This document shows positions 3,403-38,637 of a DNA stretch of 43,897 nucleotides, piece by piece. The notes under the pieces were generated by a model. It had not been told where the DNA came from, searched no databases, and saw only the letters and a list, made by a program, of their open reading frames with translations. Position 1 is the first letter of the stretch. The number at the start of each line of letters is the position of its first letter. The position numbers and the translations under genes were made by a program. The DNA is from Bacillota bacterium (GTDB lineage: Bacteria; Bacillota; SHA-98; UBA4971): contig JAAYRV010000254.1 in NCBI GenBank assembly GCA_012518595.1, positions 1 to 43,897 of the forward strand, written 5' to 3'.

Positions 3403-3415
3403 AAGGGGTTCGGGC

Positions 3416-4168
3416 ATGTCAGGATCAAGATGCCGGAGGAAGGAAGGCACCTCGCCTATTATGTTCATTCTTGTCGTCGTAATCTGCATAGTGTTGGTTC
3501 TTGAGTTGACGGTTCCGCGAATAATTGCATCTCAACTGGAAGATGCAATAGAGTCAAGCGTAGACAAGATTGAATCAGTTAGAGTTCGTTTGAGAGCATT
3601 TCCTGCAATCAATTTGCTTTCTTCCGGAGCGGTGAATTCTATCAGCATCGACTGCAGAGGTCTGTTTATTGAAGGCCTCAGAATTGAGTCTCTCATGATT
3701 GACGCAAGTGACATTCTCATCCAAAGGGAAGCCTTGGCCGAAAAGAGCAGTCTCGTTCTGTCCCACATAGGGCAAGGACAAGCTGAAGTAGTGCTTACCG
3801 AGGACGATCTCACTAGCTATGTACGTGGGCTGGATGGCGTGCCTGATTCTGTCCTGGTTGAGTTGAATCCCGGTCAAGTGACAGTCAGAGGTCATGTGAA
3901 TGTAGCAGGCATGGATATTCCTGTAGAGCTTGAAGGGGAGTTTGTCGCAGAACAAGGCGGCGCCTGTCTCAGTTATGCGATCAGTCATATTAGGATAGGC
4001 AATGCTATGCTTCCTTCTATTATTACCGACGGGTTTCTAAGTGGCCTTAGCTTTTCGCTGGACATGTCGAGTCTTCCTATTCCTGTGGTGATTAGTGACG
4101 TAAACATGGAAGATAAAATTGTGCGCATTATCGGGAGGACGCTAAGTGACAACAGAGAGAGCATGTAG
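3416..4168 (+). CDS. DUF2993/LmeA-like membrane-anchored lipid-binding protein
   Basis: A single N-terminal membrane segment (about residues 15-36, IMFILVVVICIVLVLELTVP) is followed by an extracytoplasmic beta-rich domain. The pattern 'a membrane anchor, then an amphipathic IASQLEDAIESSV helix, then alternating strands (VRVRLRAFPAINLLSSG..ISIDCRGLFIEGLRI)' matches DUF2993, the family of mycobacterial LmeA, whose members bind phospholipid. I chose ATG 3416 because AAAGGGG lies 7-8 nt upstream; an in-frame GTG at 3392 would overlap the prfB stop. It sits between prfB and DUF5693. The family call comes from pattern recognition and is moderately secure; the cellular role here is unknown. Confidence 0.68.
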   Translation: MSGSRCRRKEGTSPIMFILVVVICIVLVLELTVPRIIASQLEDAIESSVDKIESVRVRLRAFPAINLLSSGAVNSISIDCRGLFIEGLRIESLMIDASDILIQREALAEKSSLVLSHIGQGQAEVVLTEDDLTSYVRGLDGVPDSVLVELNPGQVTVRGHVNVAGMDIPVELEGEFVAEQGGACLSYAISHIRIGNAMLPSIITDGFLSGLSFSLDMSSLPIPVVISDVNMEDKIVRIIGRTLSDNRESM

Positions 4169-4218
4169 GAAAAGCGTTCTTTCAAGATAGGCGCCGCGAT
4201 AAAGTGGGGTGGGGATCT

Positions 4219-23762: not shown

Positions 23763-23984
23763 GACAGGCTGCACCCAGGCTATGCAGAATGCGAAGTGCA
23801 CTCCCGCGGGGCGAGGAGAGTGGGATTACGTTCTCTCGCATTGCTTACGGGTACCGCTATTAGAGATGTGTTACGGGTAACCTTACCACCAGCGACAGTC
23901 TCCATGAAAACAACAGGATGCACGAGAGCGAAAGGAAATTGGGCAAATTGGTTAGGACTAATGAGAAAATTACATCAAGATCTA

Positions 23985-24013
23985 TTGACATTCATTTGCT
24001 TGGGTTTTATAAT
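23985..24013 (+). promoter_or_regulatory. Perfect consensus sigma-A promoter for the DUF2089 operon
   Basis: TTGACA (23985-23990) and TATAAT (24008-24013) match the -35 and -10 consensus at all 12 positions with the ideal 17-nt spacer. Transcription should start near 24020, about 50 nt before the DUF2089 ATG. It is the best promoter in the window. So strong a promoter before a regulator-like gene suggests it is normally repressed. Confidence 0.9.
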
Positions 24014-24018
24014 GTCAA
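23985..24018. promoter_or_regulatory. Inverted repeat embracing the promoter (candidate operator)
   Basis: TTGACAT at 23985-23991 is repeated inverted as ATGTCAA at 24012-24018, 20 nt between arms. One arm is the -35 box itself and the other covers the end of the -10 box, so a dimer bound here would exclude RNA polymerase. Seven-base arms could occur by chance, but the placement is suggestive. Confidence 0.45.
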
Positions 24019-24025
24019 TACAGGG

Positions 24026-24040
24026 ATTAATAATATTAAT
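24026..24040. promoter_or_regulatory. 15-bp AT-rich palindrome at the start of the DUF2089 leader
   Basis: ATTAATA-A-TATTAAT is a perfect palindrome around a central A. It lies just after the predicted transcription start. It is a candidate operator for the HTH-containing DUF2089 protein encoded next. AT-rich palindromes are less specific, so confidence is moderate. Confidence 0.45.
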
Positions 24041-24072
24041 ATAGATATCAAGAAGTTAAAGGGGGCAGCAAT

Positions 24073-24456
24073 ATGAAGCGCAGGGCTCTTGGCAGATGTC
24101 CTGTCTGCGGAGAATCGCTTGAAGTCACGAAACTTTCTTGCTCCAGGTGCGATACTTCTATCAGCGGACACTTTGAAACATGCAAGTTCTGTCAGATGAC
24201 TGATGAGCAAAGAAATTTTGTGGCGACGTTCATCAGATGTCGCGGGAATATAAAAGAAGTTGAGAGAGAACTCGGGATCTCTTACCCTACAGTCCGAGGG
24301 CGTCTTGATACAGTAATCCAGGCGCTTGGTTTCCCGATAGAAAGTGATAAGGAAGATGAGGCGGAAGCTGCTGCCAGGCGCAAGGAAATCCTGGATTCCC
24401 TTGCTACGGGAGAGCTTGGCGCCGAGGAAGCCGTGAAGCTTCTGAAACAGAAGTGA
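24073..24456 (+). CDS. DUF2089 family zinc-ribbon/HTH protein (probable regulator)
   Basis: The 127-residue protein starts with a cysteine-rich ribbon (CPVC at 9-12, CSRC at 23-26, CKFC at 37-40), consistent with zinc binding. A helix-turn-helix-like part follows (about 48-85: FIRCRGNIKEVERELGISYPTVRGRLDTVI), then an acidic linker and a C-terminal helical module (ILDSLATGELGAEEAVKLL). This matches DUF2089, found beside DUF4097 genes in many Bacillota. The same C-terminal module occurs at the N-terminus of the next two proteins. It heads the operon directly behind the consensus promoter and palindromes, so it is probably an autoregulated transcription factor; that is inference. AAAGGGGG precedes the ATG. 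Confidence 0.85.
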   Translation: MKRRALGRCPVCGESLEVTKLSCSRCDTSISGHFETCKFCQMTDEQRNFVATFIRCRGNIKEVERELGISYPTVRGRLDTVIQALGFPIESDKEDEAEAAARRKEILDSLATGELGAEEAVKLLKQK

Positions 24457-24486
24457 GTGGACATAGATTGCTAGGAGGGGCGCATT

Positions 24487-25740
24487 ATGCGTGAAGAAGT
24501 CATGATGATCCTGAAGATGCTTGAAGAAGGCAAAATCACTTCAGAGCAGGCTTCGTCGTTGATTGAGGCTATTGATGATGCTGTGGGATTCCGCGCTTCC
24601 GGAGAATCCTTCGAGACTCCCGAGGGTGACGGTGAGAAATCTGAGGAATCAAAGCCAACGCCTTCTTCAAAAGGGCCTGGCATGACAGAAGTCAAAGGGC
24701 TTGTTGATAAGCTTTCAGGCCTTGTTGATGTAGTGGATAAAGAGGCCCTTGATAACTTGGCGGAGACGATCCGCGAGACTGTGGAGAGTGCGGTAAAGAG
24801 CACAGATCAAGTTATTGACCGTGTACAGCAGGAAGTAGATCGTAGACTGCGTGTTGAGTCTGATGACGAAGATGATTCACTGGCACGCTGGTCAAAAGCT
24901 ATTCTTGAGCCGTTCCAACGCATGTTTTCGCCTAGCATCAGGGTGGAGAAGGTTGTAGAGGGGGGTTTTAAGGGGGAAGCCGGCAAGAAGATTGACATAG
25001 CGCTCATCACGCGGAATGGAAGCATTGTGGTTGAGCCATGGGACGAATCCGGTTTCCGTGTCATTATGACAGCTAATGTGATCCCCGCTGTAGAAGGGCG
25101 GACAAATGATTATGAAGCAGCCAATGCTCTTGTAGAAGAATTCCTCAAATGCGGTGTGACTGATGATTCTCTCAAGATCAAGGCCGGTCATGAGAGGGCT
25201 CTGGCAGGCGCGTCTTTCGATGTGAAATTGCCGAGAGAGTTTCTCTACGACATGGATCTCAAGACGCAAAACGGCAGGGTGAGCCTGGGTGAGTTTGAGT
25301 GCAGAATGATTAAGGTAGAGACCTCAAACGGTCGTATAGAATTGGACAATACTCACGGTGTCATAACTGAGTTGGAAAGCTCTAACGGCAGAATTAATGT
25401 CAGTGGAATTACCCGGAGGCTCAGCGCAAGGACTTCAAACGGAGGGATAGCAGTTATACCCCGAAGGATAACCGGGGAGTCCGAATACGAGCTCAAGACC
25501 TCCAACGGAGCAATAGAAGTACAGCTTGCAGACGCTGACAGGGTAGGCTATCATATAGACGCCAAAACAAGCCGGGGGTGCATTGTGCTTGATCTTCCGG
25601 GCTTAGCCTATCTGGCAAGGGATGAAGGGACTGCACGGAGAGAATTGATTACTGAGACATCAGGGTTTTCTGAGAGCACTGACAGGTTGACAATTAAGGC
25701 GCGGACATCCAACGGCCAGGTGCGTATTGTGCATAGTTAA
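24487..25740 (+). CDS. DUF4097 (YvlB/LiaX-like) beta-solenoid protein
   Basis: The 417-residue protein begins with a short helical module (ILKMLEEGKITSEQASSLI) shared with its neighbours, has an acidic or low-complexity linker and a helical stretch (about 35-135), then a repetitive domain with recurring TSNG turns (TRNGSIVV, TQNGRVSL, TSNGRIEL, SSNGRINV, TSNGGIAV, TSNGAIEV and TSNGQVRIV), the hallmark of DUF4097 adhesin-like beta-solenoids. Relatives include B. subtilis YvlB and enterococcal LiaX, which report cell-envelope and antimicrobial peptide stress. There is no signal peptide or membrane segment, so its location is uncertain (LiaX also reaches the surface without a classic signal). 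AGGAGGGG precedes the ATG by 6-7 nt. Confidence 0.88.
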   Translation: MREEVMMILKMLEEGKITSEQASSLIEAIDDAVGFRASGESFETPEGDGEKSEESKPTPSSKGPGMTEVKGLVDKLSGLVDVVDKEALDNLAETIRETVESAVKSTDQVIDRVQQEVDRRLRVESDDEDDSLARWSKAILEPFQRMFSPSIRVEKVVEGGFKGEAGKKIDIALITRNGSIVVEPWDESGFRVIMTANVIPAVEGRTNDYEAANALVEEFLKCGVTDDSLKIKAGHERALAGASFDVKLPREFLYDMDLKTQNGRVSLGEFECRMIKVETSNGRIELDNTHGVITELESSNGRINVSGITRRLSARTSNGGIAVIPRRITGESEYELKTSNGAIEVQLADADRVGYHIDAKTSRGCIVLDLPGLAYLARDEGTARRELITETSGFSESTDRLTIKARTSNGQVRIVHS

Positions 25741-25794
25741 TATGTCCCGAAATGTCTCGAAGTTTCAAGTACATTAAATGGGAGGGAAATTCTG

Positions 25795-26172
25795 ATGTCA
25801 GAAGAGAAGAAGAAAGTCCTCGAGCTTGTTCAGGGCGGGAAGGTCTCAGTGGATGAAGGACTGGAGCTGTTGCAGGCTTTAGACAGTTCAAGCCACGAAG
25901 GCGCATCAGGTCCTGCGCGCGTTGGTGGCAGCCATGGAAGAATGCTACGGATACGCGTCTTCGATGCCGGAGACGATACGCGGGTCAACGTTAATATACC
26001 TCTTGCCCTAGCCAAAGTCGCAATGAAATTCATTCCAAAAGATGTGTCCAAGCAGCTTGAGAATGAGAATATTGACCTTGACGAGCTTTTGTCCAGTATT
26101 ACTGAAGTGAATTCAGGGAAAATCGTCGACGTAGACAGTGAGGACACAAAAGTAGAAATATATGTTGAGTAG
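25795..26172 (+). CDS. Small SHOCT-like domain protein of the YvlB/LiaX neighbourhood
   Basis: The 125-residue protein has the helical module VLELVQGGKVSVDEGLELL near its start, then a linker, a strand (MLRIRVFDAGDDTRVNVNIPLALAKVAMKFIP) and a C-terminal segment (IDLDELLSSI..GKIVDVDSEDTKVEIYVE). The 'I.I...D...V.VN.PL.LA' pattern is common in small proteins encoded next to DUF4097 genes. No catalytic motif and no membrane segment are visible. GGGAGGG precedes the ATG by about 8 nt. It probably binds its DUF4097 neighbour through the shared module. A terminator-like hairpin begins about 50 nt after its stop. Confidence 0.75.
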   Translation: MSEEKKKVLELVQGGKVSVDEGLELLQALDSSSHEGASGPARVGGSHGRMLRIRVFDAGDDTRVNVNIPLALAKVAMKFIPKDVSKQLENENIDLDELLSSITEVNSGKIVDVDSEDTKVEIYVE

Positions 26173-26599
26173 GGACGTGGTAGCATTGCTGACCGGGCTG
26201 ACACTTATGGGTGATTCGGTGACTCCGGCCGGGCCCAGGAGACGGACGAGACGGGCGCCCGGAGTCCCTTCGTTTTTCCTCTTGTTCACGTTGAAGTTGC
26301 CTGATATGCGATTTCGCGTTCCTATTTTGGTCCCGCTATTCGTGTTGGAAGACCTTTTGGAGTCAGCTGCCATTATCATTAGTGTCTTTGGCTTTTTGTT
26401 TCCTTCAGCAAGACGGAAAATACGACTGGACACAGAGCAATTCAAAAGCTCGTTCCGCTTTAGTGAAGAGTTGGATATGATAACAGCGTTGGATCTAGGA
26501 TCTGAACTGGTGAAGGAATTGCGGTCCTACGGAAGATTTACGTTATTGGAGGTATCAGAAGGGTCTCAAGGTATGAACCTTACTCTGCGTTTCATTTAG
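26162..26599 (+). CDS. Small hypothetical protein of the envelope-stress cluster (start uncertain)
   Basis: I do not recognise this family with confidence. The most protein-like part is from about 26306 (MRFRVPILVPLFVLEDLLESA, then a hydrophobic IIISVFGFLFP), followed by a polar helix and a C-terminal strand (LLEVSEGSQGMNLTLRFI). The arrangement 'strand with RVP..VPL, hydrophobic helix, FP, acidic helix, E/DV..V.L' echoes the second half of the preceding SHOCT-like protein, so it may be a diverged copy without the module. The ATG at 26162 has no ribosome binding site and the first 45 residues (proline- and arginine-rich) coincide with a strong GC hairpin, so translation may start later, at ATG 26306 or a TTG just before it. 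It may also depend on coupling to the upstream gene. Confidence 0.5.
   Translation: MLSRDVVALLTGLTLMGDSVTPAGPRRRTRRAPGVPSFFLLFTLKLPDMRFRVPILVPLFVLEDLLESAAIIISVFGFLFPSARRKIRLDTEQFKSSFRFSEELDMITALDLGSELVKELRSYGRFTLLEVSEGSQGMNLTLRFI
26221..26277 (+). terminator. Intrinsic terminator-like hairpin inside the operon
   Basis: GACTCCGG (26221-26228) pairs perfectly with CCGGAGTC (26259-26266); GCCC (233-236 of the same block) can pair with GGGC (253-256) to extend the stem. A T-rich stretch with five consecutive T follows (26273-26277). This looks like a rho-independent terminator after the SHOCT-like gene, allowing partial read-through to the downstream membrane-protein genes. The T tract begins 6 nt after the stem, which weakens the case. 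Confidence 0.55.
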
Positions 26600-26616
26600 G
26601 TTGACCGGTGGTAGGG

Positions 26617-26657
26617 ATTAACGAGGCGCCCCGCCTGCTAAGGGTGTCCTCGTTAAT
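26617..26657 (+). repeat. 10-bp perfect inverted repeat before the YvlD-like gene
   Basis: ATTAACGAGG (26617-26626) is matched by CCTCGTTAAT (26648-26657) with 21 nt between, and CCC/GGG inside can extend the stem. It starts 18 nt after the preceding stop and ends 60 nt before the next start. No T tract follows, only GTGTGTTG, so it may be an RNA processing or pausing element or a protein site rather than a standard terminator. Confidence 0.6.
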
Positions 26658-26717
26658 GTGTGTTGTAATGAGCTTCTTTATGTACGAGTAGACATGTTGA
26701 CGGAGAGGGTGATAGTA

Positions 26718-27071
26718 TTGAGAAGGCGCGCATTTGTCATCAGATGGTTAGCAAATGCTATTGTTCTTTTCATCATTCCTTACCTTATGGGTCCGGCAGT
26801 CCAAATAACCGGGGTTGCCCCTGCACTTTTGGCTGCCTTCATACTGGGAATTGTGAACGCGCTTATACGGCCTATTCTGATTGTCTTGTCTCTTCCTATA
26901 CAATTACTTACGTTAGGCTTGTTTACGTTCATGATTAACGGCTTCATGTTGTGGATAGTATCCAGGGTCGTGCAGGGTTTTTACATATCGGGGTTTTGGC
27001 CGGCTGTGCTGGCGTCAATACTCCTCTCAATAGGAAGTAGTATCATAAGTTGGGTGGTGGGAGATCAGTGA
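26718..27071 (+). CDS. YvlD-like four-helix membrane protein (phage-holin superfamily IV type)
   Basis: The protein has about 117 residues and four membrane segments: FVIRWLANAIVLFIIPYL, ALLAAFILGIVNALIRPILI, LLTLGLFTFMINGFMLWIVS and PAVLASILLSIGSSIISWVV. The ALIRPIL and LTLGLFTFMINGFMLW phrases are typical of the family annotated as phage holin IV, which includes B. subtilis YvlD, encoded in the yvlABCD operon with a DUF4097 protein. It is a chromosomal envelope protein, not part of a prophage. The TTG start (MRRRAFVIRWL) lies 8 nt after GAGAGGG; longer upstream starts lack a binding site. The stop overlaps the HAD gene start by 4 nt (GTGA). Confidence 0.85.
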   Translation: MRRRAFVIRWLANAIVLFIIPYLMGPAVQITGVAPALLAAFILGIVNALIRPILIVLSLPIQLLTLGLFTFMINGFMLWIVSRVVQGFYISGFWPAVLASILLSIGSSIISWVVGDQ

Positions 27072-27886
27072 CAGTTTCAGGATCCGAAAAAGCAAGGTTG
27101 GTAGCTATCGACATAGACTACACGTTAATTGGCAGCGATCTTAAGATAAGCGACAGAACAAAGCAAGCTATACATGCTGCCACAGATGCCGGAAGCACGG
27201 TGACATTGGCGACCGGACGAATGTTCCGGGCGGCAGTGCCTTTCGCTGAAGAATTAGGTCTTGATGCTCCGCTCATAACTTACGACGGCGCTTTGGTGAA
27301 AACCGCCAAGACCGAGGAGTTGTACTGGCATAAGCCAATACCCATTGAAGACGCAAGAGAGATCTTAGCTCATCTGCAGAGTCTTGGTTTTCATATTAAT
27401 GTTTACATAGACGATGAAGTCTATGTTGAACGCCTGAATGAAGAATCCCGCAGTTATACGGCCCATGTTAACGTGGCTGCCAGAGCTGTAGGGGACTTGC
27501 TGGAGTTTCTCAACGAACCTCCGACGAAAATCTTAATGATGACGGAGCCGGACGTCATTGATAATCTTCTGCCTGAGTTGGAACGAAAGTTCAGAGACAT
27601 ATCTCATGTGGTACGGTCTTTACCTCAATATGTCGAGTTTACTGCTAAAGATGTCACTAAAGGAGCAGCGCTCGCTGAGTTAGCAAAACGCATGGGCATT
27701 CCACAGGCTCAGGTTATGGCTATAGGTGACAGCGAAAATGATGTAACTATGCTGTCGTATGCCGGGATTGGCGTGGCTGTATGCAATGCAGTTGACAGGG
27801 CAAAAGAGGCAGCGGACTACGTTACCGAGGGAATAAACGGAGACGGGGTTCGAGAAGCGATATATAGGTTCGTTTTGAGCAGTTAA
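27068..27886 (+). CDS. Cof-type HAD-superfamily IIB hydrolase
   Basis: This is a cytosolic HAD phosphatase, probably acting on sugar phosphates or nucleotide metabolites; the substrate cannot be told. Motif I is AIDIDYTL (nucleophile Asp about residue 15, acid Asp 17), motif II is in TLATGRMF, motif III Lys in DVTKGAAL, and motif IV is GDSENDVTML. Between them lies a type IIB cap (about 85-190). Motif I has Tyr where most relatives have Gly (DLDGTL). GTG 27068 overlaps the YvlD-like stop and follows GGTGGGAGA. Coupling to the envelope-stress genes suggests co-expression, but a functional link is unproven. Confidence 0.9.
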   Translation: MTVSGSEKARLVAIDIDYTLIGSDLKISDRTKQAIHAATDAGSTVTLATGRMFRAAVPFAEELGLDAPLITYDGALVKTAKTEELYWHKPIPIEDAREILAHLQSLGFHINVYIDDEVYVERLNEESRSYTAHVNVAARAVGDLLEFLNEPPTKILMMTEPDVIDNLLPELERKFRDISHVVRSLPQYVEFTAKDVTKGAALAELAKRMGIPQAQVMAIGDSENDVTMLSYAGIGVAVCNAVDRAKEAADYVTEGINGDGVREAIYRFVLSS

Positions 27887-28938: not shown

Positions 28939-28958
28939 CACGGATTAGCACGGGTTAG
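28939..28958. repeat. Near-perfect 10-bp tandem repeat at the convergent gene ends
   Basis: CACGGATTAG is followed at once by CACGGGTTAG, one mismatch in ten. The second copy overlaps the stop codon of the minus-strand penicillin-binding protein gene. Similar CACGGATTA-type units occur as dispersed intergenic repeats in other genomes, so this could be a remnant, but two copies are too few to prove it. Confidence 0.5.
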
Positions 28959-31048
28959 GGCAAGTGGACGGGAAATGCTCCATGCCAAGGACACTCATCA
29001 ACCGGTTGAGTGCCACTCTTAAACAGCTCCCAACGAGTGCCGGGGCAGGCAGGTGAAGCCAGATACCCTGTCTCATGGCATATTTCCACCCGAACTATTC
29101 CACGAGGTGTTTGAAAGGATAACGCCGGCATGTCCCGAAGCGCGTTTTCAATGAAATCTGCAAATATCGGTCCTGCGGCAGTCCCTCCTGATTTTCCTAA
29201 AGGGATGCCCGGGTCGTCGTTGCCGATGTACACTCCACATACCAGATCCGGAGTGTATCCAATAAACCACGCGTCCGTGTAGTTCTGTGTGGATCCTGTT
29301 TTCGCAGCCACCGGCCGTGTAATCCGGGACGAGACGGCGCCTGCAGTACCCCATTGGCTGACGACTTGCCTTAGCATGTCCGTGATAATAAAGGCTGTTC
29401 GAGGGTCAAGAACTTGCCTGGCCACGACTCGGGCACGATACAGTTCCCGTCCCCACCTGTCTTCGATGGAGGTTATGAATATCGGTTGAACCCGCTTTCC
29501 TCCATTTGCGAAAGGCGCAAAAGCCAATGCCATCTCAAACGGAGTGACTTCTGAGGTTCCAAGGACAAGTGATAAATTAGGTCCCAGCGGGCTTGCTATG
29601 CCAAGTTGTTTTGCCAATTCTATTCCCTTTTCAGGACCAAGGATATTCGCAAGGGACACTGATATTACATTGCACGAAACCACTAAAGCTTCTCTCAGAG
29701 TCAGCCACCTGAAATGATACTGAAATTCGCCGTAATCAGTGGGAGTGTAAGGCAGTCTCTGCCTGTAGAATGTTATAGGCTCACAAGGTAGCACAGATGC
29801 GGCAGTAAACCCGTTATCTAAGGCTGCCGCATAGAAGAAGGGCTTGAATGAAGACCCGGGTTGCCTGAGGGCTTGCATTGCGCGGTTAAACTGGGTTTCA
29901 GCATAGCTTCTTCCGCCTATGAGGGCTTTGACATGCCCGTTCCTTGGGTCCAGCGCCACGAGCGCGCCTTGGGGTTGAATCGGTCGTCTCGCTTCAGCAT
30001 CAGAACCTTCTGTACCCGAAGAGGGCGTAAGAGCGTCAAGCCCCTTTGCGAAAGCTTGTTCAGCAGCCCTTTGAAAGTCCATGTCCAATGATGTGTGAAT
30101 CTTCAGGTTCCCTGAATAAAGCAACATACCTTCGTCTCCCAGAAGCTTTAGGGCTTCGTCAGTGACATAATCCATGAAATACGGGGCAGCTCTGATTTCG
30201 CGTCTCCCGATTCCAACAACGTGAACTGCTTCTTCTGCGGCTCGATCAGCTTCATCTTGGGAAACATAGTTTATCGCTACCATCCGATCAAGGACGGTCT
30301 TTCTTCGTCTGATGGCAGCATCCACATCTCTGTAAGGCGAGTAGTAGAACGGCGCCCTTGTGACGCCTGCCAACATAGAGGCTTCTGCAAGGGAAAGATT
30401 GGATGCTTGCTTTCCAAAGTAGAGTCTTGCGCCTGCTTCAACACCGTACGCCCCATGCCCCAGATACACCAGGTTCAAGTAGCGCTCCAGGATTTCGTCT
30501 TTGGAAAACCTGACTTCCAGGTATAGGGCGAGGATTGCTTCAGCAAGCTTCCTCCCGATAGTCCGTTTTGTAGTCAGGTACATGTTTTTCGCCAATTGCT
30601 GAGTAATTGTGCTGCCTCCTTCAACGATCCGCCCTGCGCGGGCATTACGTATGAAAGCCCTTGCTATCCCAATAGGATCGAGCCCCGGATGCTGATAAAA
30701 GCGGGAGTCTTCCACTGCGATAAACGCATGCGGAAGGTCACGAGCCATGTCAGAGAGGGACACTTCGATTCTACCGGGGGCTGCAGCTCTTTCTATGACG
30801 TTGCCGTGAACATCATAGAAAGTGCTTCCCCCTCTTATGGCAGGGATAGGACCTATGGAGACAATAAGCGAAATCACAAGGACGATGAAGACAAAGAAGA
30901 CCACTATCCAACGCCACCACAAGGCAGCGCCAAGCTTTTCTTTGTACTTGTGCAGTCCTTCCCAGTTCCCCTTCAGCGCGTATACCACCTTCCGCCATGT
31001 GTGGCAGGCGTCGGGATTTCCAAGTTGGAATGCGCTTGTGCCCGGCAC
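28955..31048 (-). CDS. Class A penicillin-binding protein (PBP1A-type transglycosylase/transpeptidase)
   Basis: This enzyme polymerises lipid II into glycan strands and cross-links the peptides, outside the membrane. After a cytoplasmic tail and one membrane anchor (about residues 46-65, WIVVFFVFIVLVISLIVSIG) comes a GT51 domain with catalytic Glu in AVEDSRFYQHPG (about 112), GGSTITQQLAKN and the RKLAEAILALYLE motif. The transpeptidase domain has SSFK (about 400), SCN (about 457) and KTG (AAKTGSTQNY, about 583). A short Cys-containing tail ends it. No good ribosome binding site precedes GTG 31048; a GTG about 60 nt downstream is an alternative. It is the only convincing minus-strand gene, convergent with the YhaM-like gene and divergent from apgM. 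Confidence 0.95.
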   Translation of the reverse strand: MPGTSAFQLGNPDACHTWRKVVYALKGNWEGLHKYKEKLGAALWWRWIVVFFVFIVLVISLIVSIGPIPAIRGGSTFYDVHGNVIERAAAPGRIEVSLSDMARDLPHAFIAVEDSRFYQHPGLDPIGIARAFIRNARAGRIVEGGSTITQQLAKNMYLTTKRTIGRKLAEAILALYLEVRFSKDEILERYLNLVYLGHGAYGVEAGARLYFGKQASNLSLAEASMLAGVTRAPFYYSPYRDVDAAIRRRKTVLDRMVAINYVSQDEADRAAEEAVHVVGIGRREIRAAPYFMDYVTDEALKLLGDEGMLLYSGNLKIHTSLDMDFQRAAEQAFAKGLDALTPSSGTEGSDAEARRPIQPQGALVALDPRNGHVKALIGGRSYAETQFNRAMQALRQPGSSFKPFFYAAALDNGFTAASVLPCEPITFYRQRLPYTPTDYGEFQYHFRWLTLREALVVSCNVISVSLANILGPEKGIELAKQLGIASPLGPNLSLVLGTSEVTPFEMALAFAPFANGGKRVQPIFITSIEDRWGRELYRARVVARQVLDPRTAFIITDMLRQVVSQWGTAGAVSSRITRPVAAKTGSTQNYTDAWFIGYTPDLVCGVYIGNDDPGIPLGKSGGTAAGPIFADFIENALRDMPALSFQTPRGIVRVEICHETGYLASPACPGTRWELFKSGTQPVDECPWHGAFPVHLP

Positions 31049-31165
31049 ACACGCTTATACGATTGTAGTATGTCCTAATGAGGCCTTTGGGGAGGATAAT
31101 ATGAAGACGTAGCGAATATGAGTTAGGTTAAGAGTTAGATGGCAGTCAGAGGAGGAGACAACAAC

Positions 31166-32371
31166 GTGGTAAATATTGAACTCGTAAAGGATCTCTGCCA
31201 GAAGACAGAATCGAAAATCGTCATGGTAGTTGTAGATGGCATAGGAGGGCTGCCTTATCCCGGCATCGGGCGCAGCGCTCTGGAAGAGGCAAATACCCCA
31301 AACCTGGATAGCCTGGCAGCTATCTCCAGCTGCGGTTTGACAGAGCCGGTGGCTCTCGGCATTACACCTGGAAGCGGGCCTTCGCATCTGGCTTTGTTTG
31401 GATATGACCCACTGAAGTACGAGATAGGCAGAGGGGTTCTTGAGGCTCTTGGGGTGGGGATAACGTTGGGGCCTTCTGATGTCGCAGCCAGGGGGAATTT
31501 CTGTACAGTGGATGAATCCGGCATCATTACCGACAGACGAGCAGGTAGGATTCCTACTGAAGAGAATCAGCGGCTTATTGAATCCCTTCGTTCAATCTCC
31601 GTGGAAGGCATTGAAATCATTCTTGAACCCGGGTCCTTCCACCGTTTTGTTGTGGTATTCCGAGGGCAGGGACTATCCGGCGACATAGAGGACACAGATC
31701 CTCAGCATGTCGGCGAAAGGCCGAAGGACGCACTCTCGCGTAGTCCTGAAGCGGCTTACACTGCAGGTCTTGTAAACCGGTGGATTGCAGAAGTTAAGAA
31801 AGCACTCAAGAATGAGCGTCCCGCGAATATGATATTGTTGCGTGGTTTTGCCGGGCTTCCCGAAATACCCACCATGTCCCAGGCATTTAAATTGACCCCT
31901 GCCGCCATAGCCGGTTATCCTATGTACCGTGGCTTAGCCAGGCTTGTAGGTATGGAAATTCTGGAAACCGGAGTCAGTATCAAAGATGAAGTGGAAACAC
32001 TCACGACCCACTTTGATGACTATGATTTCTTCTATGTCCATGTGAAAGACACCGACAGTTCCGGCGAAGACGGCAATTTCACGGGTAAGGTCCAAGTGAT
32101 CGAGGAGTTTGACAGCCTCGTTCCCTCAATCCTTGACCTTGAGCCTGATGTGCTCATAGTGACCGGGGATCATTCCACTCCGGCTAAGATGAAAGGACAT
32201 AGTTGGCACCCGGTGCCATTCCTCATTCATTCTCAATGGGTGCGGACTGAAGAGGTCGAAGGATTCGGCGAGTCAATGTGCGCCAAGGGTAATCTCGGTG
32301 TGTTCCCGGCGCTGGGCGCCTTGCCTCTGGCTCTTGCCAATGCATTGAAGCTGGGCAAATTTGGGGCTTAG
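31166..32371 (+). CDS. apgM: Cofactor-independent phosphoglycerate mutase, archaeal type (ApgM)
   Basis: This enzyme interconverts 3- and 2-phosphoglycerate in glycolysis and belongs to the alkaline phosphatase superfamily with two metal ions. The 401 residues show VMVVVDGIGGLP (metal-binding Asp), EEANTPNLDSLA, GITPGSGPSHLALFGYDPL (with the phosphorylated Ser), GRGVLEALGVGI, VHVKDTDSSGEDGNF and VTGDHSTPAKMKGHSWHPVPF. These match ApgM rather than the longer bacterial GpmI. GTG 31166 is chosen because AGAGGAGGAGA lies about 8 nt upstream; an ATG at 31139 has no such site. It is divergent from the penicillin-binding protein and upstream of cdaA. ApgM occurs in Archaea and in scattered anaerobic bacteria. 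Confidence 0.93.
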   Translation: MVNIELVKDLCQKTESKIVMVVVDGIGGLPYPGIGRSALEEANTPNLDSLAAISSCGLTEPVALGITPGSGPSHLALFGYDPLKYEIGRGVLEALGVGITLGPSDVAARGNFCTVDESGIITDRRAGRIPTEENQRLIESLRSISVEGIEIILEPGSFHRFVVVFRGQGLSGDIEDTDPQHVGERPKDALSRSPEAAYTAGLVNRWIAEVKKALKNERPANMILLRGFAGLPEIPTMSQAFKLTPAAIAGYPMYRGLARLVGMEILETGVSIKDEVETLTTHFDDYDFFYVHVKDTDSSGEDGNFTGKVQVIEEFDSLVPSILDLEPDVLIVTGDHSTPAKMKGHSWHPVPFLIHSQWVRTEEVEGFGESMCAKGNLGVFPALGALPLALANALKLGKFGA

Positions 32372-32421
32372 AAGCTTGCCTCAAAGATGGCGTTTGTCTC
32401 CGTAATAATGATTTATCAGCC

Positions 32422-32450
32422 TTGCATCGGATCCCATTAATGTATAGTAT
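32422..32450 (+). promoter_or_regulatory. Possible promoter for the cdaA operon
   Basis: TTGCAT (32422-32427) and TAGTAT (32445-32450) are 17 nt apart in an AT-rich stretch of the apgM-cdaA gap; an overlapping TATAGT at 32443 is a better -10 but with a 15-nt spacer. The match is imperfect, but the position, about 50 nt before cdaA, is right. Confidence 0.35.
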
Positions 32451-32497
32451 ATATTTGTGATAGAGGCTGCGTTCGGATGGATCCAAGGGGGAGGTAT

Positions 32498-33349
32498 ATG
32501 CTGTTTAATTTCAGCATGGAGAGGCTTACCGAGAGCCTGGCAAAAGTAAATGCGTTGAATGCAATTCGCTCCGGAGTCGATATTCTCATTGTTGCCTATG
32601 TTATCTATAAGCTCTTGGTTATTATCAGGGGAACAAGAGCCGTGTCGCTTCTCAAAGGCATTGCTGTCATTTTTATCGTTACCATGCTCAGTGATTTGCT
32701 TGAACTACGCACAGTGAATTGGCTTTTGCAAAAGACAATTACCATGCTTTTTGTCGCTCTGCCCATTGTGTTTTTGCCTGAACTCAGAAGAGCTTTGGAG
32801 CAAATCGGCCGCGGCGGTATATTTACGGGCCCGTTAGGACTTCTGGAGAAAGAGGACACAATGATACTGATTTCTGACATTACCAAGGCAGCGACAGTCA
32901 TGGCCAGAGACAAAATAGGCGCCCTTATTGTGGTTGAACGGGACACCGGTATCGCAGAGCTAATGGAGACAGGCACTAAGATTGACGCTGTGGTTTCAGC
33001 AGAGCTCCTTATCAACATATTCATTCCCAACTCGCCATTGCATGACGGCGCCGCGATAATTCGAGGCAGCAGAATAATGGCTGCAGGCTGCTATTTGCCT
33101 CTGTCGGAGAATCCTAATATAAGCAAGAGACTTGGTACCAGGCATCGTGCTGCCCTAGGCTTGTCAGAGCAGTCTGATGCCGTGTCTATAGTTGTTTCCG
33201 AAGAAACCGGGGTTATTTCAATAGCATACAGCGGGAAGCTAATGCGTTATCTTGATGAAAGCGCGTTGCAAGAGAGACTCATAGAGTTGCTTCACGGAAG
33301 CAAACTTCGTCAAGGGATTCCTGCCTGGCTAAGGGGGCATGTGATGTGA
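32498..33349 (+). CDS. cdaA: Diadenylate cyclase CdaA
   Basis: CdaA makes the second messenger c-di-AMP from two ATP; in Bacillota it controls potassium and osmolyte balance and wall homeostasis. Three N-terminal membrane segments (ILIVAYVIYKLLVII, LLKGIAVIFIVTML, ITMLFVALPIVFL) precede the DAC domain with the catalytic DGA (NSPLHDGAAIIRG, about residue 182) and GTRHRAALG (about 214). Length of about 283 is normal. ATG 32498 is directly behind AAGGGGGAGG; ATG 32477 is an upstream alternative. It is followed by cdaR and glmM, the conserved c-di-AMP regulatory cluster, and overlaps cdaR by 4 nt. Confidence 0.96.
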   Translation: MLFNFSMERLTESLAKVNALNAIRSGVDILIVAYVIYKLLVIIRGTRAVSLLKGIAVIFIVTMLSDLLELRTVNWLLQKTITMLFVALPIVFLPELRRALEQIGRGGIFTGPLGLLEKEDTMILISDITKAATVMARDKIGALIVVERDTGIAELMETGTKIDAVVSAELLINIFIPNSPLHDGAAIIRGSRIMAAGCYLPLSENPNISKRLGTRHRAALGLSEQSDAVSIVVSEETGVISIAYSGKLMRYLDESALQERLIELLHGSKLRQGIPAWLRGHVM

Positions 33350-34095
33350 AGCTGCAAGTGCCTCGGGAAACCTACCTTAGAATAGCAGCTGTCCTCTTGG
33401 CAATCGTCATATGGTTTGTGGCAGGCGCAGACATGAATAAGACCAAGGCTGATATTGCGGAGCGGTTTATTACCACAGGTCTGGAGGTGGAGGGTGCACC
33501 TCCTGAATGCATTGTCGAGACCAGGCCAAGGGACGTGGAGGTTCGAGTGCGGGGGCCGAAGTATCTTGTAGAACCGTTAGATGGCGGAAGAGTGAAGGCA
33601 TTGGTATCTGTAGCCGGTCGCGGTGAAGGTGAATACGCTGCAAGGGTTCACGCATCAGCCCCCGAGGGCGTCCAGGTAATTGAGGTTATTCCGGCTTCAG
33701 TAGGTGTGAAGATGGACGCTATTGTCAGCGAAGAGTTTCCGGTTCGGGCAGGGATAATAGGATATCCGGGGGAGATGTGCGTTCCTCTGGAGCCGGAGTT
33801 ATCGCCTAGGTTCGTCACGATTATCGGCCCTAAGAGCCAGGTGGAATCTGTAGCGGAAGTCGTGGCTCAAATTGATGTGTCAGGTATCACCTCTGCCATC
33901 TCCAGGAACGTGAAGGCGAATCCGATAGATGCAGGAGGCAATCTTGTAGCGGACTTGAATACTCAGCCGCAAACCGTTCGCGTATTTGTGCCTGTTGGCA
34001 AGATACCTACCGCCCCGCCGGATGACGAAGAGACGGATGAGGCGCCAGAGGAGCAAGATGAAGATGCTAACGGATTGGGGCCTTTGCTTGAGTAG
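33346..34095 (+). CDS. cdaR: YbbR-domain protein CdaR, regulator of CdaA
   Basis: CdaR is a membrane-anchored protein that binds and modulates CdaA from outside the cell. The 249 residues have one N-terminal membrane segment (LRIAAVLLAIVIWFVAG) followed by two YbbR-like beta domains (about 35-125 and 126-215; VEVRVRGPKYLVEPL and VTIIGPKSQVESVAEV are the matching strands) and a very acidic C-terminal tail (DDEETDEAPEEQDEDANG). B. subtilis CdaR has more repeats, so this is a short form. The GTG start overlaps the cdaA stop by 4 nt and is translationally coupled to it. Confidence 0.93.
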   Translation: MKLQVPRETYLRIAAVLLAIVIWFVAGADMNKTKADIAERFITTGLEVEGAPPECIVETRPRDVEVRVRGPKYLVEPLDGGRVKALVSVAGRGEGEYAARVHASAPEGVQVIEVIPASVGVKMDAIVSEEFPVRAGIIGYPGEMCVPLEPELSPRFVTIIGPKSQVESVAEVVAQIDVSGITSAISRNVKANPIDAGGNLVADLNTQPQTVRVFVPVGKIPTAPPDDEETDEAPEEQDEDANGLGPLLE

Positions 34096-34151
34096 CCCCG
34101 CGGTTTGCTGAGGCGGTCATAGATTGTCATATTGATCAGGAGGAACCGGAT

Positions 34152-35522
34152 ATGGCGAGATTGTTTGGGACTGACGGGGTACGAGAGATTGCCAACACAC
34201 GCCTCTCGCCGGAGCTGGCGTTTGTTTTGGGTAGAGTCGGAACCGGAATTATCGCAAGGAGACTGGGGACGAGACCTACGGTTATTGTGGGACGCGATAC
34301 GAGACTCTCCGGGGATATGCTGGAGGCTGCGGTGGTTGCAGGGATAGCGTCAGTTGGGGGATATGCAGTGAATACCGGTATAATCCCCACTCCCGGAGTG
34401 GCGTTCCTGGTGAGGGATCTTCAAGCTGATGCAGGCATCATCATTTCAGCTTCTCATAATCCCATGGAGTATAATGGAATTAAGTTCATATCAGGTGACG
34501 GATTTAAGCTGTCAGATAAAGAAGAGCTGGAAATAGAGAAACATGTGATCTCTCATGAAAAAGGCAGGTTGTGTTTTGATACTTCTGATGTCTTCCCCAG
34601 GCCGTCAGGGAATGACGTAGGAAGGGTGTTTCAGCTTGAAGACGCCGGAGAGAGATATATACGGCATGCCAAAAGCACTGTCAGTGTTACTATGGAGGGT
34701 TTGAAAGTAGTCGTGGATTGCGCAAACGGCGCTGCGTCATCATATACGCCACGACTACTTCAAGATCTCGGCGCTGATGTCATAGCGATAAACGACAAGC
34801 CTGACGGAACTAATATTAATGTTAATTGTGGATCAACCTATCCCGGGATTGTATCGGAAGTTGTAGTTGAAACAGGGGCTGATGTCGGGCTTGCGCATGA
34901 CGGTGACGCTGACAGGTTGATTGCTGTTGATGAGAGGGGCTGTGTGGTTGACGGCGATCACATCATGGCTATTTGCGGTTTGGATCTTCTGCGAAAGGGA
35001 ATGCTGCCGCATAATACCATAGTTGCCACCGTATACAGCAATTTGGGGTTATCCAGGACCTTCGCGCGTGAAGGCGGTAAGGTTGTAATTACGCAAAACG
35101 GTGACAGATATGTCCTGGAACAAATGAGAAAACTAGGTGTTATTCTAGGCGGAGAACAATCAGGGCACATAATCTTCCTGGACCGCAATACCACAGGGGA
35201 TGGGATTATTACTGCACTTGCCCTTCTATCAGTTCTTCGTACAACAGGCGGGAGATTATCGGAGTTGGCTTCATGGATGGAAGTATACCCGCAAGTTCTT
35301 ATGAATGTCAGAGTCAGCAACAAACAAAAATTGTCTTCCAATTCTGCAATAGACCGGGCTATTGAGCGCGCTGAGGCATTGATAAGCAAAGAGGGACGAA
35401 TATTTGTGCGTCCTTCGGGAACAGAGCCCTTGGTTCGCATCTTGGGCGAGGGTCCGGAGGAGTCTGTGGTAAGAACTGCTGTATCTGAGGTAGCAAGAGT
35501 AATACAGGAAGAGTTAGGTTAG
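34152..35522 (+). CDS. glmM: Phosphoglucosamine mutase
   Basis: GlmM converts glucosamine-6-phosphate to glucosamine-1-phosphate for UDP-GlcNAc and peptidoglycan synthesis, and in several Bacillota it also binds and inhibits CdaA. The 456-residue protein has the N-terminal LFGTDGVREIAN, the phosphoserine loop IISASHNPMEYNGIKF (Ser about residue 100), the metal loop HDGDADRL (about 250), the sugar-binding GGEQSGHIIF and the phosphate-binding RPSGTEPLVRI. AGGAGG lies upstream of the ATG. Its position after cdaA-cdaR matches the conserved cluster linking wall precursor supply and c-di-AMP. No glmS ribozyme is present. Confidence 0.97.
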   Translation: MARLFGTDGVREIANTRLSPELAFVLGRVGTGIIARRLGTRPTVIVGRDTRLSGDMLEAAVVAGIASVGGYAVNTGIIPTPGVAFLVRDLQADAGIIISASHNPMEYNGIKFISGDGFKLSDKEELEIEKHVISHEKGRLCFDTSDVFPRPSGNDVGRVFQLEDAGERYIRHAKSTVSVTMEGLKVVVDCANGAASSYTPRLLQDLGADVIAINDKPDGTNINVNCGSTYPGIVSEVVVETGADVGLAHDGDADRLIAVDERGCVVDGDHIMAICGLDLLRKGMLPHNTIVATVYSNLGLSRTFAREGGKVVITQNGDRYVLEQMRKLGVILGGEQSGHIIFLDRNTTGDGIITALALLSVLRTTGGRLSELASWMEVYPQVLMNVRVSNKQKLSSNSAIDRAIERAEALISKEGRIFVRPSGTEPLVRILGEGPEESVVRTAVSEVARVIQEELG

Positions 35523-35536
35523 GTGTTATTGACTTG

Positions 35537-35947
35537 ATGGCTCCTATGTCGCATGTAATCGGTATCGGAGTAGACATTATCGAAATTAGCAGAATTCGCG
35601 AATTGATGGAGCGTAAAGGCGACAGGCTCCACGGGCGTGTGTTCACTGATATTGAGATGGATGCTTTTAAGGGAGGACACTATGAGAAACTAGCCGGCAG
35701 GTTTGCGGCTAAGGAGGCTGTATCTAAAGCGCTGGGCCGGGGAATGTCCGGAATCGGATGGAATGAAATCGAGATCGGGAACGAACCTTCCGGAAAGCCT
35801 TATGTGCGCTTATTAGGCCGGGCCGAAGAACTTGCCAAGGCGCGGGGCGCGAAAGATATTCTTATCAGCATATCCCACACGGACACTCTTGCCATGGCTT
35901 TTGCCGTTGCAGTCGGAGGTGGAAATCTTGAAGGTCGTAACCGCTGA
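35537..35947 (+). CDS. acpS: Holo-[acyl-carrier-protein] synthase
   Basis: AcpS attaches the 4'-phosphopantetheine arm of CoA to acyl carrier protein for fatty acid synthesis. The small protein (about 136 residues) has the metal-binding IGIGVDIIEISRI near its start and the GRFAAKEAVSKALG motif with Glu and Lys, then ISISHTDTLAMAFAV. ATG 35537 or ATG 35546 (MSHVIGIGVD) are both possible; an AGGTTAGGTG lies slightly far upstream. It overlaps the start of nnrD by 20 nt. The acpS-nnrD-alr order is common in Bacillota. Confidence 0.95.
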   Translation: MAPMSHVIGIGVDIIEISRIRELMERKGDRLHGRVFTDIEMDAFKGGHYEKLAGRFAAKEAVSKALGRGMSGIGWNEIEIGNEPSGKPYVRLLGRAEELAKARGAKDILISISHTDTLAMAFAVAVGGGNLEGRNR

Positions 35948-37511
35948 CGAGATGCGCGAGATAGACAGACGCGCTATTGAAGTAATAGGTATTCCCGGTG
36001 TCGTCCTGATGGAGAATGCAGGGCGAGCTGTGGCTGATACTGTAAAGACGATTCTCCGGGATGTGACAAACCCGCGTGTATGCATATTTGCCGGCAGGGG
36101 TAACAATGGAGGGGATGGATTCGTAGTCGCCAGGCACCTGGCAAACTCCGGAGTGAGAGTAAAAACCTTCCTCCTGGGAGATATCAGCCAAGTTCAAGGT
36201 GATGCCAGAATTAACTTGGATATTCTTCGAGGCATGGGCATGACAGTGGATGAGCTATATGCAGATGGGCTTCCCACTGCCAGGGTAGCAATGTCCATGT
36301 CGGATTTGGTAATAGACGCCATATTCGGGACGGGGTTTAAGGGAGAAACAGAGGGATACATCAGTCATGTCATTGATACTGTCAATGAGTCAGGGAGGCC
36401 TGTTGTTGCGGTTGACGTTCCTTCAGGACTGGATTCCACAACCGGCAGGGCAAGTTCCAGCTGTATCAGGGCGAATCATACAGTGACTTTCGGCCTTCCC
36501 AAGGTGGGGCTGGTTCTTTACCCGGGCGCAGCTTATGCCGGTGAGTTGGTTATCGCTGATATCGGCCTTCCCGAATCCCTTTTGGTCGATGAAAATCTTA
36601 AGTTGAACCTTTCCATGGGTGATAGCATTAGGCATTGGCTCCCCCGGCGGGACAAAGACTCTCACAAGGGGACGTTCGGGAGAGCGATAGTGATTGCCGG
36701 CTCGCCTAATATGGCCGGCGCTGCCGCGCTTACAAGCACTGCAGCCTTAAGAGCAGGCGCAGGCCTTGTAACCCTTGCTGTTCCCACCGGTTTACAGGGA
36801 GTCATGAACTCAAAGCTAACTGAGGTCATGACTCGGGGGCTTCCGGAGACTGAATCAGGTAGCATAAGCCTACAAGCTCAACCTCTTTTGGACGGCGTCA
36901 GTCGCGGCGCTGCTGCACTGGCTATCGGGCCCGGCTTATCAACTCATAGTGAAACTGCTCAACTAGTAAGGAATATGGTGATGACGACCTCTGTTCCAAC
37001 GGTTGTAGACGCTGATGGGATAAACGCGATTGCTCAGGATCCCGGTACTTTGAAAGCAGCGAAGGCGCCGATTATACTTACTCCTCATCCCGGAGAAATG
37101 GCGAGATTAACAGGTCTCTCTATACTAGAGGTCAAGCGTGACAGACTCAACGTGGCACTTCGGGCAGTGTCCCAGTGGGGAAAGATTGTAGTTCTAAAAG
37201 GCGCTCGCACAATAATTGCTGACCCATCGGGGACAGCTTATATTAATCCAACAGGCAATCCGGGAATGGCGACTGCAGGTAGCGGGGATGTGCTTACCGG
37301 CATTATCGTAGGGCTCTTGGCCCAAGGTATGAGAGCTTTGGAAGCAGCTGTGTTAGGCGTTTATGTACATGGACTCGCCGGTGATATCGCGTGTTTGAGA
37401 CTGGGTGAGATGGGTGTTACCGCCACGGACATTCTGGAGAGTGTGCCTGAGGCCTTACGTAGATTGGTAGAGGAGAGAGGCGAGAAACATGTGGGATGGC
37501 CGTCGGGATAG
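35928..37511 (+). CDS. nnrD: Bifunctional NAD(P)H-hydrate epimerase / ADP-dependent dehydratase
   Basis: This enzyme repairs NAD(P)H damaged by hydration: the N-terminal half epimerises R- and S-NAD(P)HX, and the C-terminal half dehydrates S-NAD(P)HX back to NAD(P)H. The first domain (about 1-215) has MENAGRAVAD, FAGRGNNGGDGFVVARHL and AVDVPSGLDSTTG; the second (about 225-520) has DSHKGTFGRAIVIAGSPNMAGAA, ILTPHPGEMARL, VVLKGARTIIAD and NPGMATAGSGDVLTGII. The start is TTG 35928 (MKVVTADEMREID), 7 nt after GGAGGTGG and inside acpS. Longer upstream reading has no NnrE-like residues. It overlaps alr by 23 nt. The fused form is typical; some genomes name it nnrE/nnrD. Confidence 0.95.
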   Translation: MKVVTADEMREIDRRAIEVIGIPGVVLMENAGRAVADTVKTILRDVTNPRVCIFAGRGNNGGDGFVVARHLANSGVRVKTFLLGDISQVQGDARINLDILRGMGMTVDELYADGLPTARVAMSMSDLVIDAIFGTGFKGETEGYISHVIDTVNESGRPVVAVDVPSGLDSTTGRASSSCIRANHTVTFGLPKVGLVLYPGAAYAGELVIADIGLPESLLVDENLKLNLSMGDSIRHWLPRRDKDSHKGTFGRAIVIAGSPNMAGAAALTSTAALRAGAGLVTLAVPTGLQGVMNSKLTEVMTRGLPETESGSISLQAQPLLDGVSRGAAALAIGPGLSTHSETAQLVRNMVMTTSVPTVVDADGINAIAQDPGTLKAAKAPIILTPHPGEMARLTGLSILEVKRDRLNVALRAVSQWGKIVVLKGARTIIADPSGTAYINPTGNPGMATAGSGDVLTGIIVGLLAQGMRALEAAVLGVYVHGLAGDIACLRLGEMGVTATDILESVPEALRRLVEERGEKHVGWPSG

Positions 37512-38637
37512 GCCTACCATAGCTGAAATCGATCTTACGTGTATAGCCCGCAACATACAGGGCATTCGTAAGATAGTGGGATCCGATTGTGAAATCCTCG
37601 CAGTTGTAAAAGCCGACGCGTATGGCCATGGAGCGATACCTGCAGCGCGTACAGCCTTGAATAACGGAGCAAATTGGCTGGGAGTTGCGTTGGTTGAAGA
37701 AGGCATAGCTCTCAGGAGATCCGGAATTATCGCTCCAATACTAGTTCTTGCCCAGCTATTCCCCACTCAAGCACAGGCAGCCTTGCGTTATAACCTATCA
37801 TGCGCGGTGGCTACGTATGAGTTTGCTGAGGCTTTGTCCAATGCTGCCGTCAAGGAGGGAAAAAAGGCTAAGTGCCACGTGAAGATCGATACCGGTATGG
37901 GGCGTATCGGCTTATATCCGAACCAGGCAGTGAGTTTCGTGAAGCGCATTGCCATGCTGCCAAATATTGAAATTGAAGGCGTTTTTACGCACCTGGCCAC
38001 TGCTGAGGCCGAGGACAGGTCCTTTCTTTATCGTCAACTCTCCTTGTTTAATGATGCGACTGAGGCTCTCAAGAGCAACGGTATTCAAGCGCAATACTAC
38101 CATGCAGCCAACAGTGTAGCTGCAGTGACTGTCCCTGAGGCCAGGTTTGATATTGTAAGGCCGGGGATTTTCATATATGGGGTGACTCCGCTCTCAGGCG
38201 AGGAAGCCAGAGGGATTAGGTCAGAATTGGACATTACGCCTGCTCTGTCTCTCAAGACCAGAGTGGGTTTTGTGAAGAGGTGTCCTAAAGGCGCTTCCAT
38301 AGGTTACGGGGCTACGTACACTACAGATAGGGATTGCACCATTGTAACTCTGCCAATCGGATATGCGGACGGTTTCCCCAGAGCCCTTTCCAACCGCGGA
38401 CAAGTGCTTATCAGGGGGAATAGGCTTCCGGTAGTAGGCAGAGTATGTATGGATGAGTTCATGGTATGCGCAGGCGACTTAGAAGTCGATATGGAAGATG
38501 AGGTTATTATCATAGGCAGGCAAGGAAAGGAAGAGATCACTGCAGAGGAAGTGGCAGAGAAAGCCCACACAATAAGCCACGAAGTCCTTTGCGGAATAAG
38601 CAGGAGGGTTCCGCGAGTCTACCAAAACAGGCCGTGA
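37489..38637 (+). CDS. alr: Alanine racemase
   Basis: Alr is a pyridoxal-phosphate enzyme that makes D-alanine for peptidoglycan. The 382 residues begin RPTIAEIDLTCIARNI and carry the PLP lysine in AVVKADAYGHG (about residue 41), the KIDTGMGRIG strand, ANSVAAV, RPGIFIYGVTP, the catalytic Tyr in GYGATYTT (about 271) and the C-terminal VGRVCMDEFMV. Length is normal. The start overlaps the nnrD 3' end by 23 nt. In B. subtilis an alr gene is followed by the EndoA toxin-antitoxin pair; here a dehydrogenase gene follows instead. Confidence 0.97.
   Translation: MWDGRRDRPTIAEIDLTCIARNIQGIRKIVGSDCEILAVVKADAYGHGAIPAARTALNNGANWLGVALVEEGIALRRSGIIAPILVLAQLFPTQAQAALRYNLSCAVATYEFAEALSNAAVKEGKKAKCHVKIDTGMGRIGLYPNQAVSFVKRIAMLPNIEIEGVFTHLATAEAEDRSFLYRQLSLFNDATEALKSNGIQAQYYHAANSVAAVTVPEARFDIVRPGIFIYGVTPLSGEEARGIRSELDITPALSLKTRVGFVKRCPKGASIGYGATYTTDRDCTIVTLPIGYADGFPRALSNRGQVLIRGNRLPVVGRVCMDEFMVCAGDLEVDMEDEVIIIGRQGKEEITAEEVAEKAHTISHEVLCGISRRVPRVYQNRP

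Follow-up and report, generated by a model that had tools for sequence, protein, structure and literature searches.

An operator-like array in register with the promoter of a DUF2089-Toastrack operon points to a candidate one-component repressor

In the LiaFSR-LiaXYZ system of Enterococcus, LiaX is a SHOCT-like/Toastrack relative and LiaZ/YvlD is a PF04020 protein (PMC10269926). A four-gene context that joins DUF2089 to Toastrack has been described more recently by Ravi et al. (mSystems, 2024; PMC11237479), who split DUF2089 into zinc-ribbon, helix-turn-helix (HTH) and SHOCT-like parts, name a Bacillus megaterium homologue (ADE70705.1) and predict for this context a Lia-like signalling from the membrane to transcription. 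Here we analyse a six-gene operon headed by a DUF2089 gene in a stretch of 43,897 nucleotides from a Bacillota bacterium (assembly GCA_012518595.1, contig JAAYRV010000254.1), hereafter the window. A first-pass annotation of this DNA had held that the regulator and its partners appeared not to be characterised as one system, which does not stand, as the DUF2089-Toastrack context, the domain division and the Lia-like role are all in that 2024 study. The gene context is therefore already published, and it is the DNA pattern around the promoter that appears to be new: we found no operator for DUF2089 in a search of open-licence literature, so that earlier work may have escaped us.

A periodic array at the DUF2089 promoter

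The strong consensus promoter that the first-pass annotation placed ahead of the operon is indeed there, and around it lie an inverted repeat and a periodic array that had been overlooked:

23985 to 24013, + strand: sigma-A promoter TTGACA-N17-TATAAT, a 12/12 match to consensus with a 17-bp spacer
23983 to 24020, no strand: perfect inverted repeat of 10 nt, TATTGACATT / AATGTCAATA, on either side of the promoter; it is a special case of two array sites
23985 to 24059, no strand: operator-like array with TYRA sites at 23985, 24015, 24027, 24036, 24048 and 24056, at offsets 0, 30, 42, 51, 63 and 71 from the -35
24026 to 24040, no strand: core palindromic pair ATTAATAATATTAAT

The unit of the array is TYRA (TTAA, TCAA or TTGA), repeated at spacings of alternately 9 and 12 bp and hence with a period of 21 bp, and the 9-bp pair forms a palindrome near ATTRAYAWTATTAAT. 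The TTGA of the -35 (23985-23988) doubles as an array site, there is an additional one-mismatch site, TTTA, at 24006, and the last site (24056, offset 71) is one base off the family register (72). An alignment of the 11 members of the window's family shows that, past the -10, it is the T and A of each site that never vary.

The pattern emerged on aligning homologous upstream regions by their -35, and it recurs across bacterial phyla. The DUF2089 loci used were gathered from the genomes of relatives and from named genomes, and were picked by similarity to the window's DUF2089, so they are not a random sample; in most of them a near-consensus promoter lies 50-120 bp ahead of DUF2089. Chains of at least four sites were found in 40 of the 102 DUF2089 upstream regions, where dinucleotide-preserving shuffles predict 0.02; since this statistic was chosen with the pattern already in view and the sequences share ancestry, the ratio is not a probability. 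Pairs of sites are enriched 11.7-fold at a distance of 9 bp, 8.7-fold at 12 bp and 14-fold at 21 bp, and the distances of 30, 42, 51 and 63 bp form peaks as well. The remaining DNA of these loci is a separate control: its 976 kb hold 5 chains and the 67 kb before DUF2089 hold 47, a density before DUF2089 some 136 times that of the surrounding DNA, and one of the five control chains (in locus L041) is itself an internal promoter of such an operon.

In most arrays the register with the -35 holds, and their position is one of two: downstream of the -10, as in the window, or upstream of the -35, as in Clostridia-like lineages. Sites of the upstream type fall at -42, -33, -21, -12, 0 and 9 from the -35, and those of the downstream type, to which the window's family belongs, at 30, 42, 51, 63 and 72. 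An 18-bp spacer shifts the downstream sites by one base, and these sites thus follow the -10. Where DUF2089 is preceded by an open reading frame (ORF) resembling gene 4 or gene 3 of the operon (L040, L048 and L051, at about 5400-5460), the array promoter stands before that ORF, and so the array sits at the head of the operon whatever the first gene. Some Bacillota carry a further array promoter within the operon, directly before a SHOCT-like gene of the gene-3 type (L041:4593-4644, L191, L200 and L212).

A sequence-only model, R1, was built from 31 upstream-type promoters, none of them from the window's genus or family, and run over 200 genomes with strict filters, by which weaker sites are lost. 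In the window's genome the window array is its best match and the sole one at E<=0.01 (E 2.8e-6). With E<=1e-3 as the limit, 21 genomes have matches, and 8 of them contributed a training row; DUF2089 is present in 12 of the 13 others, compared with 69 of 200 overall (p 4.6e-6), and the array adjoins DUF2089 in most genomes that have both. Cruder patterns were discarded, as a strict four-site pattern with one mismatch gave mostly coding-like matches in the window's genome and a general five-site pattern returned, over the 200 genomes, many heptad-like matches besides those beside DUF2089. The R1 matches in G176 and G180 were set aside since they are located inside ORFs, and an apparent target in trans (G039:C108) is really a DUF2089 promoter split by a contig end.

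The array also recurs before other genes. It lies away from DUF2089 ahead of ABC-2 exporter ATPase genes in three genomes (G154, G008 and G007), with a decayed copy in G010; Pfam identifies the ATPase and ABC-2 permeases. The homologous operons in the window's genome (G000) and in G005 have a TTGACA promoter with looser site spacing (offsets of -20, -11, 0, 10, 22 and 31 in G000). On contig 282 of G000 (about 2473-5127; L216) this promoter is flanked by palindromic pairs at 2473-2487 and 2515-2529, 42 bp apart.

An unannotated protein of about 55 residues (56 in G007, 53 in G124), with the pattern M-I/M-hydrophobic-G-N/D-V-R/K-I/V-E-I/V-T/S-R... and no match in a Pfam search, is likewise encoded behind an array. 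Six further loci for it were found by protein similarity alone (G008, G009, G010, G011 and G198 twice), and an array promoter is present at 6/6; five have sites at 0, 30, 42 and 51, and the G008 locus, with an 18-bp spacer, has them at -21, -12, 0, 9, 31 and 43. Three set sites would be expected by chance at roughly 1e-6 to 3e-6 per locus, the loci not all being independent because G009-G011 are close relatives. Copies can be seen at L193:1259-1426 (- strand), L145:1608-1766 (+ strand) and L224-L229, each behind an array promoter. At E<=0.001 the window's genome gave no match to this protein.

DUF2089 as the probable binder of the array

DUF2089 is the sole predicted DNA-binding protein among the six genes, and its predicted recognition helix, SYPTVR, is nearly invariant in 44 sequences. 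An AlphaFold2 model is confident for the zinc ribbon and the HTH (predicted local distance difference test, pLDDT, 84.6), and the predicted HTH superposes on LuxR/GerE, PucR and sigma region 4 folds at 1.3-2.7 A over 44-54 columns, a likeness that is generic only, with Foldseek E-values of 0.08 or worse. As expected of an autoregulated one-component repressor, a conserved operator-like array overlaps its own promoter, and we consider it likely from the sequence evidence that DUF2089 is such an autorepressor of its own envelope-protection operon and of a small regulon.

What the sequences show directly is the array, how it is phased with the promoter, that it goes with DUF2089 and that it also stands before the other genes; we infer that DUF2089 binds the array, represses from it, is contacted through the SHOCT-like domain and responds to a stress signal, in the following way. 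Each palindromic pair, about ATTRAYAWTATTAAT, consists of two TYRA half-sites at a distance of 9 bp and would be bound by a DUF2089 dimer; as the pairs repeat every 21 bp, or two helical turns, successive dimers would share one face of the DNA. The TTGA of the -35 hexamer is one half-site, and in the window the array continues past the transcription start to about +40, so that bound DUF2089 would keep RNA polymerase away from a near-perfect sigma-A promoter. An argument for repression is that the array overlaps a consensus -35 and, in the window, the start region as well; until stress comes, DUF2089 probably holds its own operon, along with a few more genes, in the off state. The Toastrack/SHOCT proteins would sense membrane or wall damage and draw DUF2089 away from the DNA, thereby releasing the operon, the ABC-2 exporter operon and, in some relatives, the ~55-residue protein. 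It is the SHOCT-like family, found by Pfam and an iterative profile in genes 1-3 and thus common to the DUF2089 C-terminus and the N-termini of genes 2 and 3, that points to control of DUF2089 by genes 2 and 3, possibly at the membrane.

Several observations weigh against this reading. No chain beyond one site is seen in 25 of the 102 DUF2089 upstream regions, some of them GC-rich or of uncertain start; one Halanaerobiales group has its sites at 33, 42, 54 and 63, 12 bp out of the usual register; and not every array is accounted for, as at G206:C75:7990-8029 (L190) an array with a TTGACA promoter stands before a 474-residue ORF away from DUF2089. The C-terminal SHOCT-like match of gene 1 (PF22746, 0.009) is under the Pfam cut-off, although the iterative profile backs it. 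Finally, arrays placed upstream would also allow activation.

That last point leads to one of the alternatives, in which DUF2089 binds the array but activates, recruiting RNA polymerase under stress from beside or over the -35. The arrays of Clostridia-like lineages do lie where activators sit, and the HTH is predicted to resemble those of LuxR/GerE-type activators, if not significantly; yet near-consensus promoters would need no activator, the -35 is itself a site and the sites of the window's family cover the start region, and we regard activation as unlikely. We think it similarly improbable that another regulator binds the array and that DUF2089 is a signalling or adaptor protein that meets it through the SHOCT-like domain. 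DUF2089 does have a zinc ribbon and a SHOCT-like end besides its HTH; set against this are the co-occurrence of array and DUF2089 in the genomes free of training rows, side by side in most, and the lack of any other predicted DNA-binding protein in the operon.

Very much less probable is that the pattern is no operator at all but an UP element, the product of AT-rich chance or a leader translated into heptad repeats. Both spacings, 9 and 12 bp, are divisible by three, which permits a reading as heptads; one frame is open in the window (a 52-residue ORF, 23918-24076), and many array-like matches elsewhere resemble heptad-coding DNA. The translated leader was nevertheless rejected, as four relatives keep the sites despite in-frame stops (L111, L112, L116 and, with the stop at the end of the frame, L109); moreover, other lineages have their arrays upstream of the -35, an UP element is not located downstream of a -10, and the shuffles leave very little to chance.

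Thus the autorepressor remains our preferred account of DUF2089. More tentatively, it is possible that DUF2089 founds a widespread family of one-component envelope-stress repressors, marked by assembly on a single DNA face over an array of 21-bp period, the use of the -35 as a half-site, signal transfer by way of SHOCT-like domains that the Toastrack proteins also have, and a regulon that takes in ABC-2 exporters and the ~55-residue protein.

The operon and its gene context

The six co-directional genes announced by the first-pass annotation are borne out by + strand ORFs at 24073-24456, 24487-25740, 25795-26172, 26162-26599, 26658-27071 and 27050-27886, with TTG 26718 and GTG 27068 the likelier starts of genes 5 and 6 because of the lengths of their relatives:

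24073 to 24456, + strand: gene 1, DUF2089 protein and proposed repressor, with zinc ribbon (PF22747, 1.2e-14), HTH (PF09862, DUF2089-HTH, 1.4e-24) and C-terminal SHOCT-like part (weak PF22746)
24487 to 25740, + strand: gene 2, LiaX/YvlB-like, with SHOCT-like N-terminus (PF22746, 1.7e-9) and Toastrack (DUF4097; PF13349, 2.7e-10)
25795 to 26172, + strand: gene 3, SHOCT-like domain (PF22746, 4.6e-10) and a beta-beta-alpha-alpha-alpha-beta-beta domain (AlphaFold2 pLDDT 71.9)
26162 to 26599, + strand: gene 4, small family lacking a Pfam model, present at 23/73 loci
26718 to 27071, + strand: gene 5, YvlD/LiaZ-like PF04020 protein (1.1e-32) with four transmembrane segments, likely start TTG 26718
27068 to 27886, + strand: gene 6, Cof-type HAD phosphatase (5.9e-65), likely start GTG 27068, overlapping the gene 5 stop

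The overlaps of genes 3/4 and of genes 5/6 fit a single transcript, and past gene 6 there is one terminator-like site (27907), which belongs to a set whose size does not exceed chance. A stem-loop lies between genes 4 and 5 (26621-26657; TTAACGAGG ... CCTCGTTAA in the window) that is kept in four congeners and has no T run after it; with one alone of its 12 predicted pairs changed on both sides, covariation is weak. A fold search with gene 3 gave no match, and searches of solved structures found no convincing relative. Gene 4, for which a Pfam search gave no match, is not an orphan, as related ORFs occur in 37 collected loci, although the outermost of these ORFs may be gene-3-like; gene 4 may be distantly related to the C-terminal domain of gene 3, a homology for which hhalign (P 9e-4, yet probability 23%) is only suggestive.

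The first-pass annotation had called for a comparison of neighbourhoods, and the recurrent linkage it anticipated is seen: among 73 distinct loci with at least 3.5 kb downstream, DUF2089 is followed by a co-directional Toastrack gene, a gene-3-type SHOCT-like gene or both in 69. Toastrack is present at 48 of these loci, gene 3 at 57, gene 5 at 31, gene 4 at the number listed above and the HAD gene at 14, so the latter, counted into the system by the annotation and present here, is an occasional partner. One congener (G001, 96% complete) is without DUF2089, the Toastrack gene and the ABC gene alike, a joint absence that fits one unit lost together, although one genome is thin evidence. Downstream of the operon, at 28955-38637, are what look by eye to be cell-wall neighbours: a class A penicillin-binding protein gene (- strand), a CdaA-type diadenylate cyclase with YbbR and GlmM, AcpS and alanine racemase.

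Comparison with known envelope-stress systems

The yvlABCD operon of B. subtilis is in the sigma-W regulon. Like the operon described here it unites YvlB-type and YvlD-type genes, but here the promoter is of the sigma-A type and bears the array in place of an extracytoplasmic function (ECF) promoter. Among the closest is the DUF2089-Toastrack context (PMC11237479), with which the window shares a DUF2089 protein of zinc-ribbon, HTH and SHOCT-like parts beside a Toastrack gene. That text names no operator, promoter array, ABC-2 or ~55-residue targets, and it mentions variants with LiaI-LiaF-TM, B-box or PspC as well as a linked sigma factor, all of them missing from the operon described here. 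The HAAS-PadR systems with Toastrack/PspC from the same work also link a one-component HTH regulator to Toastrack proteins, through HTH and sensor domains unrelated to those here.

DUF2089 has until now been a domain of unknown function with a context-based prediction only, and the array supplies a concrete DNA-binding hypothesis for it as well as a regulon for which any genome can be scanned. It would connect Toastrack/SHOCT proteins with transcription without calling on a two-component system, and how Toastrack systems free of PspA reach the promoter becomes directly testable.

The first-pass annotation proposed a Lia/Yvl-type system with a one-component regulator, and part of this holds: no kinase or response-regulator domain is found by Pfam among the six genes, and an operator-like array tied to DUF2089 is as expected of a one-component regulator. 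It is not Lia proper. Gene 2 scores 47.1 bits with the NCBI LiaX model NF038025 against a cut-off of 350, and none of the six genes matches PF04024, the PspC-type LiaY; two PspC genes lie elsewhere in the window's genome (G000 contigs 236 and 211), where the palindromic pair was not seen in a pattern scan. PspA, by which a phage-shock-protein (PSP) system would be recognised, has no PF04012 match in this genome (~92% complete), and LiaFSR domains are absent from the operon, the rest of the genome not having been searched for them. Thus, compared with LiaFSR-LiaXYZ (YvlB-PspC-YvlD), the operon has no PspC/LiaY or two-component genes and its regulator is a zinc-ribbon HTH protein; it shares the LiaX-related SHOCT-like/Toastrack gene 2 and a PF04020 gene 5 like LiaZ/YvlD, and it may work like LiaFSR-LiaXYZ, though it is not a member.

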